NCBI GenBank assembly: GCA_015067885.1
Contig: SVLO01000019.1
Location: forward strand, 1-43,442
From: Oscillospiraceae bacterium
Lineage (GTDB): Bacteria > Bacillota > Clostridia > Oscillospirales > Oscillospiraceae
Length of the DNA stretch: 43,442 nucleotides
Direction of reading: 5' to 3'
Position numbers and translations under genes: made by a program. Position 1 is the stretch's first letter; each line of letters starts with the position of its first letter. Shown here piece after piece: positions 6,372 through 18,429 of this stretch. Below the pieces are notes generated by a model. It searched no databases. It was not told the DNA's origin and saw nothing but the letters and a program-made list of their open reading frames with translations.

Positions 6372-6417
6372 GGGCGACCTGTGGTCGCCCGCGGCCCGAT
6401 GAGGGCATCGGGCCCTA
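6370..6417. repeat. GGGGCG/GCCC palindromic repeat between cysE and cysS
   Basis: Two adjoining small palindromes, GGGGCGACC-N3-GGTCGCC and GGCCCGAT-N6-ATCGGGCCC, begin with TAGGGGC and end with GGGCCCTACA. The same framing (TAGGGGC ... GCCCCTA) with different stems recurs near 16719-16770, 18427-18532 and 41363-41395. It overlaps the cysE stop codon. Confidence 0.65.
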
Positions 6418-6446
6418 CATATTTCAATATTTTGGAGGTTATCAAA

Positions 6447-7892
6447 ATGTATCTATACAATTCCGCCACCCGCAAGAAGGAAGAATTCCAGACCCACACT
6501 CCCGGCCACGTGGAGATGTACACCTGCGGCCCCACCGTCTACCACTTCGCCCACATCGGCAACCTGCGCTCCTACATCATGGAGGACGTGCTGGAGAAGT
6601 TTCTGCGCTATGAGGGCTACAGCGTCAACCGCGTGATGAACATCACCGACGTGGGCCACCTGACCAGCGACGCCGACGAGGGCGAGGATAAGATGGTCAA
6701 GGGCGCAAAGCGCGAGAACAAAACCGTTATGGACATCGCCAAGTTCTACACCGATGCCTTCTTCGCCGACTGCGCAAAGCTCAACATCAAGACCCCCGAG
6801 GTGGTGCAGCCCGCCACCGGCCTCATCGCCGAGTTCATCACCACCGTCCAGGGCCTGCTGGAAAAGGGTTTTGCCTACGAAGCCGGCGGCAACGTGTACT
6901 TCGACACCTCCAAGCTAAAAAGCTACCACGTCTTCCACAACCACGATGAGGAGGACCTTGCCGTGGGCGTGCGCGAGGGCGTGGAAGAGGACGAAAACAA
7001 GCGCAACAAGAACGACTTTGTGCTGTGGTTCACCAAGAGCAAGTTCGAGGACCAGGCCCTGAAGTGGGACTCCCCCTGGGGCGTGGGCTATCCCGGCTGG
7101 CACATTGAGTGTTCCTGCATCTCCATGAAGTACAACGGCGAGTATTTGGACCTGCACTGTGGCGGCGTGGACAACGCCTTCCCCCACCACACCAATGAGA
7201 TCGCCCAGTCCGAGGCCTATTTGGGCCACGCCTGGTGCAAGCAGTGGTTCCACGTGGCCCACCTGAACACTAACTCCGGCAAGATGAGCAAGAGCAAGGG
7301 CGAGTTCCTCACCGTCTCCCTGTTGGAGGAAAAGGGCTACGACCCCATCGTCTACCGTTTCTTCTGCCTGCAGAGCCATTACCGCAAGGGCCTGGTGTTC
7401 TCCTGGGAGAATCTGGACAACGCCACCGTGGCCTTCAACAAGCTCCTGTCCCGCATCGCCGCCCTCAATCCCGAGGGCGAGGTGGACGGTGCCGTGCTGG
7501 CCGAATACGAGGGTAAATTCAAAGAGCAGATGGGCAACGACCTGAACACCTCCATGGGTGTCACCGCCCTGTACGACGCCCTGAAGGCCAAGACTAACGA
7601 CGCCACCAAGCTGGCCATTTTGGACAGCTACGACCGGGTGCTGTCCCTTTCCCTGCTGGATAAGGCCGCCCGCGTCCGTGCCGAGCAGAAGAAGGCCCAG
7701 GCCAACCAGGCCGCCGGCGGCTACACCGTCACCGGCGAGGGCGACGCCGAGATCGACGCCCTGGTGCTGGCCCGCGGCGAGGCCAAAAAGGCCAAGAACT
7801 TCGCCGAGGCCGACCGTATCCGGGATGAGCTGAAGGCCCGTGGCATCGAGGTCACCGACGTCCCCGGCGGCGCAAGCTGGAAGAGAGTGTAA
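6447..7892 (+). CDS. cysS: Cysteinyl-tRNA synthetase
   Basis: The 481-residue class I synthetase charges tRNA-Cys. Its zinc-site Cys in MYTCGPTVYHFAHIGNLR precedes the HIGH motif (here HIGN), the remaining ligands are in WHIECSC and HHTNEIAQ, and KMSKS appears in SGKMSKSKGEF. A DALR-like helical region and a short C-terminal ARGEAKKAKNFAEADRIRDEL segment, typical of the family, follow. The ATG at 6447 has TTTGGAGG 6-7 bases upstream; the frame is open to 6381 but that part is repeat sequence. It shares the Cys T-box with cysE. Its stop codon lies in the first bases of the next repeat, so a repeat element sits hard against the gene's end. Confidence 0.97.
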   Translation: MYLYNSATRKKEEFQTHTPGHVEMYTCGPTVYHFAHIGNLRSYIMEDVLEKFLRYEGYSVNRVMNITDVGHLTSDADEGEDKMVKGAKRENKTVMDIAKFYTDAFFADCAKLNIKTPEVVQPATGLIAEFITTVQGLLEKGFAYEAGGNVYFDTSKLKSYHVFHNHDEEDLAVGVREGVEEDENKRNKNDFVLWFTKSKFEDQALKWDSPWGVGYPGWHIECSCISMKYNGEYLDLHCGGVDNAFPHHTNEIAQSEAYLGHAWCKQWFHVAHLNTNSGKMSKSKGEFLTVSLLEEKGYDPIVYRFFCLQSHYRKGLVFSWENLDNATVAFNKLLSRIAALNPEGEVDGAVLAEYEGKFKEQMGNDLNTSMGVTALYDALKAKTNDATKLAILDSYDRVLSLSLLDKAARVRAEQKKAQANQAAGGYTVTGEGDAEIDALVLARGEAKKAKNFAEADRIRDELKARGIEVTDVPGGASWKRV

Positions 7893-7945
7893 AAGGCTTC
7901 TCCTTGAGGAGAAGCTGTCAGCCGCAAGGCTGACTGATGAGGTGG
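7891..7945 (+). repeat. Left terminal repeat of the DUF559 element (copy A)
   Basis: A 55-base unit made of two small hairpins: GGCTTCTCC-TTGA-GGAGAAGC and GTCAGCC-GCAA-GGCTGAC, ending TGATGAGGTGG. It recurs with one mismatch at 8370-8424. The ending GAGGTGG forms the ribosome site of the gene that starts at 7951. Confidence 0.9.
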
Positions 7946-7950
7946 AAATC

Positions 7951-8301
7951 ATGAACCACACCAACAATCCCAAATTGACCCCGAACGCGCAAACACTACG
8001 CAGGACCATGACCAAGGAGGAGCGACATCTTTGGTATGATTTTTTGAAATCCCTCCCCGTCACGTTCCATCGTCAGAAGGTCATCGGTCCCTATATCGCA
8101 GATTTTTATTGCGCCTCGGCGAAGCTGGTCATCGAGTTGGACGGCTCACAGCACTATGAAGGTTCCGGCCAAAAAACGGACCGTGTCCGTGATGAATATT
8201 TGCGTGGCTTAGGGCTTACAGTTCTGCGTTATTCAAATCTTGATGTTTCCAAAAACTTTACCGCTGTGTGCGAAGATGTCCTCTCTCACATCCCCAAATA
8301 A
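7951..8301 (+). CDS. DUF559 domain protein, Vsr-like predicted nuclease
   Basis: The 116-residue protein is a stand-alone DUF559 domain (PD-(D/E)XK-like, related to Vsr). Visible motifs are LRRTMTKEERHLWYDFLK, FHRQKVIGPYIADFYC and LVIELDGSQHY, with the D of ADFYC and the E, D and H of IELDGSQH forming the expected metal site; the tail LRGLGLTVLRYSNLDV is also family-typical. A DNA-cleaving role is inferred from the fold; no member's reaction is assumed here. The start at 7951 uses GAGGTGG at the end of the terminal repeat. It lies 58 bases after cysS, between inverted repeats, so it was probably inserted there and may be read from the cysS transcript. Confidence 0.88.
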   Translation: MNHTNNPKLTPNAQTLRRTMTKEERHLWYDFLKSLPVTFHRQKVIGPYIADFYCASAKLVIELDGSQHYEGSGQKTDRVRDEYLRGLGLTVLRYSNLDVSKNFTAVCEDVLSHIPK

Positions 8302-8353
8302 CACCTCATCCGACCTCGCTGCGCTCGGCCACCTTCCCCTCAAGGGGAAGGCT
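8302..8353 (-). repeat. Right terminal repeat of the DUF559 element (inverted, diverged)
   Basis: Read on the minus strand it is AAGCCTTCCCCTTGAGGGGAAGG, a GCGCAGCG-containing hairpin, and GGATGAGGTG. It mirrors the left repeat in layout but differs in many bases, as compensated hairpins do. It starts at the base after the nuclease stop codon. Confidence 0.8.
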
Positions 8354-8369
8354 TGGTCATCGCCTCCCA

Positions 8370-8424
8370 AAAAGGCTTCTCCTTGAGGAGAAACTGTCAG
8401 CCGCAAGGCTGACTGATGAGGTGG
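8370..8424 (+). repeat. Second copy of the left terminal repeat (copy B)
   Basis: Identical to 7891-7945 except for one base (GAGAAG versus GAGAAA). It stands alone, with no nuclease gene after it, and is followed by TCAAATAAA and a terminator. Confidence 0.9.
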
Positions 8425-8439
8425 TCAAATAAATACACA

Positions 8440-8473
8440 AAAACACGAGTCATCAGAAGATGACTCGTGTTTT
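8440..8473. terminator. Two-way terminator between the DUF559 element and the XRE gene
   Basis: AAAACACGAGTCATC, a 4-base AGAA loop, then the exact complement ending in GTGTTTT. It can stop transcripts from cysS on the plus strand and the XRE gene on the minus strand. Confidence 0.85.
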
Positions 8474-18072: not shown

Positions 18073-18192
18073 GCCTCCCTCTGATGAGGGAGGTGGCAAA
18101 AATCTTTGATTTTTGACGGAGGGAGAGAAATCAGGGTAACCCTTCTCTCCCTCAGTCAGCTTTCGCTGACAGCTCCCTGATCAGAGGGAGCC
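18073..18192. mobile_element. Gene-less palindromic element related to the DUF559 element ends
   Basis: About 120 bases with inverted ends GCCTCCCTCTGATGAGGGAGG and, on the other strand, GGCTCCCTCTGATCAGGGAG. Its right end, read inward, continues AGCTGTCAGC-hairpin-GCTGACTGA, the same plan as the DUF559 element's left end (AGCTGTCAGCC...GGCTGACTGA). An AAAAATC-TTTG-ATTTTT hairpin lies inside. It carries no gene and looks like a non-autonomous derivative. Confidence 0.65.
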
Positions 18193-18275: not shown

Positions 18276-18429
18276 AAAGCCTTCCCCTTGAGGGCTGCAC
18301 AGCCGTCGGCAGCTTTGCTGCCCTACGGATGTGGTGTGCCCCTTGCGGGTACATGGGGCCGCTCGTTATACGCCACCTCACCCGTCATTTGCTGCGCAAA
18401 TGCCACCCTCCCCTCAAGGGGAGGGCTTT
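18276..18429. mobile_element. Second gene-less palindromic element
   Basis: Terminal 19-base inverted repeats AAAGCCTTCCCCTTGAGGG (18276-18294) and CCCTCAAGGGGAGGGCTTT (18411-18429) differ at one position. They match the CTTCCCCTTGAG end of the DUF559 element's right repeat at 8302-8353. The inside has small GC-rich hairpins (GGCAGC-TTT-GCTGCC, ATTTGC-TGC-GCAAAT) and no gene. Confidence 0.65.

Follow-up and report, generated by a model that had tools for sequence, protein, structure and literature searches.

A one-gene DUF559 element with intrastrand-triplex-type ends in an Oscillospiraceae genome

Why is a small nuclease gene packed so tightly between hairpin repeats, and does its product have anything to do with them? 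The question is raised by a 43,442-nucleotide stretch of DNA from an Oscillospiraceae bacterium (assembly GCA_015067885.1, contig SVLO01000019.1, positions 1 to 43,442; hereafter the window), which contains within 7891-8424 a compact element, about 460 bp long and with a single gene, in the order left end (LE), DUF559 nuclease gene, right end (RE). A preliminary description of this locus had suggested that the nuclease may cut or move the very repeats that carry it. The comparisons reported here support that overall interpretation, the cutting or moving of the repeats being the part that we infer. The gene and its ends almost certainly form one inherited unit; the DUF559 enzyme probably acts on its own repeats, and we incline to think that it also spreads them.

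Anatomy of the element and the design of its ends

The gene (7951..8301, plus strand) encodes 116 amino acids and matches the DUF559 profile PF04480 with 103.7 bits (E 6.5e-30; Pfam curated cut-off 20.6). To its left lies a G-form triplex unit, the LE (7891..7945, plus strand), made of hairpin 1 (7896-7915), hairpin 2 (7917-7934) and a third-strand tail, TGATGAGGT (7935-7943), and contributing a ribosome-site-like GAGGTGG immediately 5′ of the ATG. The RE is an inverted C-form unit (8302..8353, minus strand; hairpin 1 at 8332-8351, tail at 8303-8311) that starts at the first base past the TAA stop codon. A second left end follows on the plus strand (8370..8424); it shares 54 of 55 bases with 7891-7945, and the lone difference falls in hairpin 1. 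Each end thus consists of hairpin 1, hairpin 2 and tail, the two ends being inverted with both tails facing the gene. The preliminary description had already recognised the gene between inverted hairpin repeats, the ribosome site at the end of the left repeat, the stop codon touching the right one and the 55-base copy with one difference, all of which hold; it missed the intrastrand-triplex nature of the repeats. When folded as single-stranded DNA, the LE reaches -15.7 kcal/mol (z -4.9), and 0/200 shuffles fold as well. The whole element is placed between the stop codon of cysS, the host gene directly 5′ of it (6381..7892, plus strand), and a terminator-like hairpin (8440..8473). DNA matches to the LE occur at 12 places in the same genome at E <= 0.001 and at 16 with E <= 10, and the second DUF559 gene of this genome (C23:56706) is likewise enclosed by such ends, which makes two genes out of two. 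The pairing of forms varies among individual loci, of which no systematic count was made: G-form with C-form in the window, C/C in L002 and G/G in L065 and L069.

In the ends of the window, a purine/pyrimidine hairpin is followed by a third block that mirrors the purine arm, which is the definition of the intrastrand-triplex motif. Hairpin 1 has a purine 3′ arm and a pyrimidine 5′ arm, and the tail is rich in G, A and T. Among 204 units picked without regard to tail sequence, the tail mirrored the purine arm of its own hairpin 1 at 8 or more of 9 positions in 180, compared with 15 for the arm of another class, 21 for a shuffled arm and 23 in direct orientation. Because of this mirroring, the ends are assigned to the intrastrand-triplex motifs of the BoxC/TM kind of E. 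coli. In the 76 distinct arm/tail pairs scoring at least 7, and hence already selected for the code, G stood over G in 378/420 cases, A or T over A in 203/212 and T over C in 32/37. These are the triplets of an antiparallel purine-motif triple helix. The outermost pair is near-absolute: GGC goes with tail T and GCC with tail G in 249/254 distinct units, a count in which the adjacent tail bases were set by the search pattern and the tested base was free. Hairpin 2 is free in sequence, yet self-complementary, with a stem of at least 5 in 62/99 distinct sequences versus 8 when shuffled. A known RNA family was also considered for the repeats and rejected, there being no Rfam match in 6 loci at E <= 0.1.

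The protein carries the conserved residues E24, R41, Q42, D51, E62, D64, H68, D77 and R80 (E24 in 95/95; E62, D64 and H68 in 96/96; D51 in 94/95; D77 in 95/96). The acidic and histidine residues among them fit a Vsr-type nuclease, their catalytic role being putative. By predicted fold, the closest characterised structures are the homing endonuclease I-Bth0305I (PDB 3r3p), of the Vsr-like or EDxHD kind, and Vsr itself (1cw0); the preliminary description had mentioned a Vsr-like fold and had overlooked the homing endonuclease. Homing endonucleases are found inside introns or inteins, or free-standing at one target, and we know of none with repeats of the kind found in the window. The substrate of Vsr is the T:G mismatch. 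Pfam still lists DUF559 (PF04480) under 'unknown function'. In 8/99 loci (L021, L026, L035, L039, L040, L043, L202 and L221) DUF559 is fused in frame to RNase HI (PF00075) through a linker that is the read-through of the right-end repeat; these fusions belong to the genus of the window and two other genera, and apparently mark a single site that several genera share. The gene upstream of that for the anti-inflammatory protein MAM in Faecalibacterium strain A2-165 is reported to be a DUF559 gene (PMC8836110).

Linkage of nuclease genes to their own repeat class

Are gene and repeats regularly found together? Two sets of DUF559 loci were compared: one of 99, drawn from the genus and family, and one of 80, drawn from named records that are for the most part metagenome-assembled genomes (MAGs) of Clostridia, with one locus common to both (L252 = L190). 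A first, generic double-hairpin detector was enriched at DUF559 genes (either side, 51/59) but unspecific (controls 101/341 and 129/774), and for that reason it was replaced by a triplex detector. With the latter, a triplex unit was found no more than 350 bp from the DUF559 gene in 85/89 family-set and 72/76 named loci, after leaving out 10/99 and 4/80 loci with a flank shorter than 150 bp (another pass over the named loci left out 3/80). Control genes had a unit by the same measure in 44/341 cases in genome G000 and 31/766 in G029. Of the loci with a single unit direction on each side, 32 had tails that face the gene and 6 had tails that face away from it. The TGA stop of the gene runs directly into the right-end hairpin in 12/99 and 7/80 loci, and the stop codon therefore lies inside hairpin 2 (for example in L193, L200 and L207); in other loci the C-terminus of DUF559 is itself a read-through of the right end. 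The preliminary description had called for such a tabulation and had named, as outcomes that would tell against it, genes lying mostly away from the repeats or a separate arrival of repeats and gene. Instead, the genes lie overwhelmingly beside the repeats, and each gene is passed on with its repeat class.

This joint inheritance is visible in the tail classes (ATGAGG, GAGGGATTG, GAGGGAGAG, GAGAGGG, GGGGGATT and others). On a DUF559 tree of 96 rows, 77 of them labelled and 19 without a clear class label (3/99 proteins shorter than 90 amino acids were dropped), repeat class changes 17 times, compared with 39-49 in 200 label shuffles. Swapping labels solely among the DUF559 genes of one genome gave 22-34 changes and never 17 (14 multi-class genomes). 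With the conserved core alone the number was 16, against 39-49 in all shuffles and 18-36 in within-genome swaps, so that read-through tails cannot aid the match. Because class follows the tree even within one genome, the gene carries its own repeat class whatever the host.

The matching of gene and repeat class inside single genomes, the inward orientation of the tails, the stop codons that overlap an end in some copies and the near-universal linkage in both Clostridia sets all speak against a passenger role, in which DUF559 would serve elsewhere, in Vsr-kind mismatch repair or in defence, and merely accumulate beside recombination-prone triplex repeats. Such a role would agree with the ties between triplex motifs and genome instability described by Holder et al. 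(2015; PMC4666352), with the link of Caulobacter VsrA, another DUF559 protein, to cytosine methylation (PMC12907096), and with the cyanobacterial plasmid copies that adjoin DUF1156, DUF499 and PglX genes. We consider it quite unlikely.

Copy number points in the same direction as class. At least five class-a units were present in 13/61 genus genomes, all 13 of which carry DUF559, and the 33/61 genomes without DUF559 have at most three class-a units each (Fisher 5.7e-6), with a five-unit threshold that was set after the counts were seen and with many genomes incomplete. The same 13 genomes bear on the idea that the repeats are REPs or miniature inverted-repeat transposable elements (MITEs) moved by a Y1/RAYT transposase of the IS200 type encoded elsewhere in the genome. 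As these systems are generally known, the inverted hairpin pairs do resemble REPINs, and the likeness to REP/RAYT (TnpA-REP) extends to hairpin repeats on both sides of a lone enzyme gene, to many gene-less inverted pairs and to a repeat class that follows the enzyme; flanking by cognate repeats holds in form only, with other parts. The parts differ: the enzyme of the window is PD-(D/E)XK/Vsr-like (PF04480) and not an HUH Y1_Tnp, its ends have a mirror-repeat tail and not a short guide, and its repeats are larger. Y1_Tnp was above cut-off in 8/13 repeat-rich and 20/48 other genus genomes (p 0.23), with no match in the richest genome, G010, nor in G023, G028 and G060, whereas DUF559 was present in 13/13. 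A Y1/RAYT mobiliser was therefore rejected as very improbable, Y1_Tnp not being associated with the repeat-rich genomes.

Two arrangements of DUF559 loci may be recorded besides. In five genus genomes (L030, L033, L034, L036 and L038), DUF559 with class-e repeats lies directly 5′ of a ruvB-like gene, which we take to be ruvB from its N-terminus. In L066, L068, L069 and L074, the DUF559 gene lies between long near-identical direct repeats (ungapped scores 81-129), the longest such repeats reaching about 130 bp; it looks as if whole repeat arrays had been duplicated around the gene.

Gene-less copies and empty sites

Ends without the gene were found in the window itself. At 18276..18429 there is a gene-less pair of the element's class, with its left half rearranged and an intact unit at 18375-18425 on the minus strand, and at 18074..18191 a gene-less inverted unit pair of a sister class, with tail GGAGGGAGA. 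The preliminary description had listed both places (18073-18192 and 18276-18429) as copies of the same ends; both are real, the second belongs to the element's class, and the first has the element's architecture but GGAGGGAGA in place of GATGAGG. Elsewhere in the genome, gene-less LE-RE pairs of the element's class are intact in L005, L006 and L008 and have an interrupted left hairpin in L009 and L011; the gene-less pairs of this genome measure about 110-155 bp. The proposed coexistence of gene-bearing and gene-less copies was thus borne out, and empty sites were found in addition. Among 30 relatives read 3′ of cysS, 6 had DUF559, 2 had repeats alone and 22 had neither within 330 bp. One relative without the element at this place, G033, has a terminator-like hairpin about 10 bases past the cysS stop codon, similar to that at 8440-8473 of the window. 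At 7 sites comparable between G000 and G029, three were empty in G029 (C17:73411, C23:90540 and C17:6340).

One recurrent intergenic context, AACTGATAAAGGGCGCACTTCTATAC ... terminator ... AACTGTTTTACGGACACCC, was present in 20/150 family genomes at up to 5 places per genome (L334-L363), and it had no Rfam match in L344, L345 and L350. Its middle is variable and hosts triplex elements. The states observed there were empty (L344, L345 and L349), LE-DUF559-RE of classes b, c and d, LE joined to RE without a gene (L337), and a single leftover hairpin (L348 and L351). L337, where LE and RE are joined at the borders of the gene, looks like a deletion. Such an internal-deletion form, and ends common to gene-bearing and gene-less copies, recall a MITE with its insertion sequence (IS) parent; unlike it, the element has no DDE, HUH, tyrosine or serine enzyme, and target duplication was not seen.

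The deletion-like L337 also bears on the main rival explanation, homing of the gene into existing repeats. According to this, the repeats spread otherwise, and the nuclease cuts gene-less LE-RE copies, which acquire the gene when they are repaired from a gene-bearing one. A sequence that resembles loss of the gene from between its ends fits this poorly, as do those copies in which the gene overlaps its right end, an arrangement expected within one unit, and homing leaves unexplained why class-a abundance is limited to DUF559-bearing genomes. With a predicted fold close to that of a homing endonuclease on its side, it is still unlikely; the passenger role is less likely again, and a Y1 transposase is unsupported.

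Kinship with BoxC/TM repeats, ycjD and a candidate mechanism

Does the association extend beyond Clostridia? Bacterial intrastrand-triplex motifs (BoxC, PIT or TM_ECO) are the subject of Holder et al. (2015; PMC4666352), who give 23 copies of the E. coli motif (BoxC, TM_ECO) in MG1655, in two types that are combined where two motifs are inverted. In that paper mobility genes are said never to have been found near the motif, its origin is called unclear, and the words 'nuclease' and 'DUF' are absent; the circular dichroism and nuclear magnetic resonance work reported there concerns the E. coli motif, not the repeat classes described here. No paper joining DUF559 with triplex was found in the open literature, most subscription papers being outside the search. 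The Clostridia units resemble BoxC/PIT/TM (PMC4666352) in consisting of three blocks, the last of which mirrors the purine arm, in being intergenic and, in the window at least, in the inverted pairing of two forms. Unlike the E. coli motif, they have a second, free-sequence hairpin where E. coli has a 3-base loop, they fall into many classes and they enclose a nuclease gene.

In E. coli K-12, ycjD is a DUF559 gene (PF04480, E 1.4e-49) with a TM unit about 170 bp downstream, of the design CCCTCGCCCCTCTGGGGAGAGGG-TTA-GGGTGAGGG, and with only a degenerate unit at its stop codon; in strain S1-SRB-02-B, a second, inverted unit contains the stop codon of ycjD. The sapF-ycjD-fabI stretch is covered to at least 80% in 3333/5426 E. 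coli genomes, and other strains are reported to carry the efflux operon eef between sapF and fabI (PMC12817139). At L366 (NC_000913 1351407-1351760), the content of the sapF-fabI interval differs by lineage, being ycjD and its triplex repeats in some and the eef operon in others. On plasmids of Pseudomonadota, Deinococcota, Cyanobacteriota and one Bacilli, the detector found a unit at 15/20 DUF559 genes examined (12, then 8, picked for diversity among 30 of the 43 records with a YcjD relative). Four more have shorter-stem units recognised by eye (two Picosynechococcus, Pseudanabaena and Sphingomonas p6), and the Thermoactinomyces plasmid copy has no unit. The background was 14 units in 250 kb (five 50-kb control stretches), Azospirillum accounting for 9. 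In Picosynechococcus and Synechocystis, DUF559 genes on plasmids (L370, L371, L393 and L396) adjoin DUF1156, DUF499 or BREX PglX genes. The association therefore reaches other phyla and E. coli ycjD, a reach that the preliminary description had missed.

Because the pairing recurs in distant bacteria including E. coli, the DUF559 enzyme may be the missing partner that spreads triplex repeats. We give an even chance to a broader proposal, in which the orphan triplex repeats of bacteria, both E. coli BoxC/TM and the related repeats of cyanobacteria, Deinococcus, alphaproteobacteria and Clostridia, are the ends and gene-less relics of one widespread kind of mobile element. Its sole gene would be a YcjD-type DUF559 nuclease, for which a DNA triple helix would be the signal that marks an end. 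Every nuclease lineage would evolve in step with an arm/tail code of its own, and in E. coli K-12 one such nuclease, ycjD, would persist together with its repeats.

For the element of the window, we favour, with modest confidence, the view that its single gene encodes a Vsr/homing-like nuclease with the element's own triplex ends as substrate, and that this enzyme causes the ends to spread; the steps that we infer are binding and cutting, the state of the DNA on which they take place, and movement. Each end, as a single strand, would form a duplex hairpin, a spacer hairpin of free sequence and a tail that folds back antiparallel onto the purine arm as third strand. On DNA that is single-stranded or extruded, for example at replication forks, the nuclease would read hairpin and third strand jointly, pick out folded ends that belong to its class, and nick beside them. 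Nicking could let the element be copied or moved into new intergenic sites, often next to terminators. Gene-less LE-RE copies, putative products of internal deletion, might then be mobilised in trans.

Several observations weigh against this. Neither cutting nor movement was observed. The arm/tail covariation indicates that arm is matched to tail, which makes a triplex in the cell a candidate only; a tail test with an anchor that ignored the arm gave no discrimination (own 4.12 versus other 3.51 of 9), the anchor itself being, we think, badly set. No target duplication was seen at cysS or at the G000/G029 sites, whose flanks are too diverged for base-exact junctions, and the empty-site comparisons are between species and not strains. 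Among the same 7 G000/G029 sites, the two genomes have the gyrA-side DUF559 copy in common; at a further site both carry units, and at two others G029 holds different sequence. Many copies are old and lie at shared sites (gyrA, ruvB, rnhA and cysS); the gene is therefore often inherited vertically. DUF559 is missing from 33/61 genus genomes, and in the repeat-rich G023 and G030 only DUF559 of other classes was found, which counts against a strict rule. On the upstream (left) side of E. coli ycjD no unit was found, and Caulobacter VsrA is linked to cytosine methylation. In a phylum sample, 2/28 further PF04480 loci had any unit (1/15 with a frame of up to 200 amino acids), a sample of mostly weak matches, many within large proteins, in which a narrower offset range gave the same 2; it includes two strong contig-edge matches without a unit. 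Not every DUF559 gene is therefore of this kind, and the repeat link holds as a property of the YcjD/Clostridia type, not of the whole Pfam family PF04480.

We know of no transposon for which a triple helix is the end signal. If the reading is true, a restriction/Vsr-type nuclease would be the only enzyme of this mobile element and a triple helix the end that it recognises, and the element would be a candidate cause of the repeat-rich, rearranged genomes of gut Clostridia and cyanobacteria. BoxC/TM repeats have been without a known way of spreading (PMC4666352), and the DUF559-repeat link offers a testable function for both the repeats and DUF559 in a laboratory organism.

A contig of 415 kb assigned by binning to Anaerolineaceae also carries a complete class-a LE-DUF559-RE (L276), close to two tRNA genes; Rfam matches at this locus were only to tRNA, T-box and plastid entries, none to the repeats. 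It may reflect transfer across phyla or MAG contamination.
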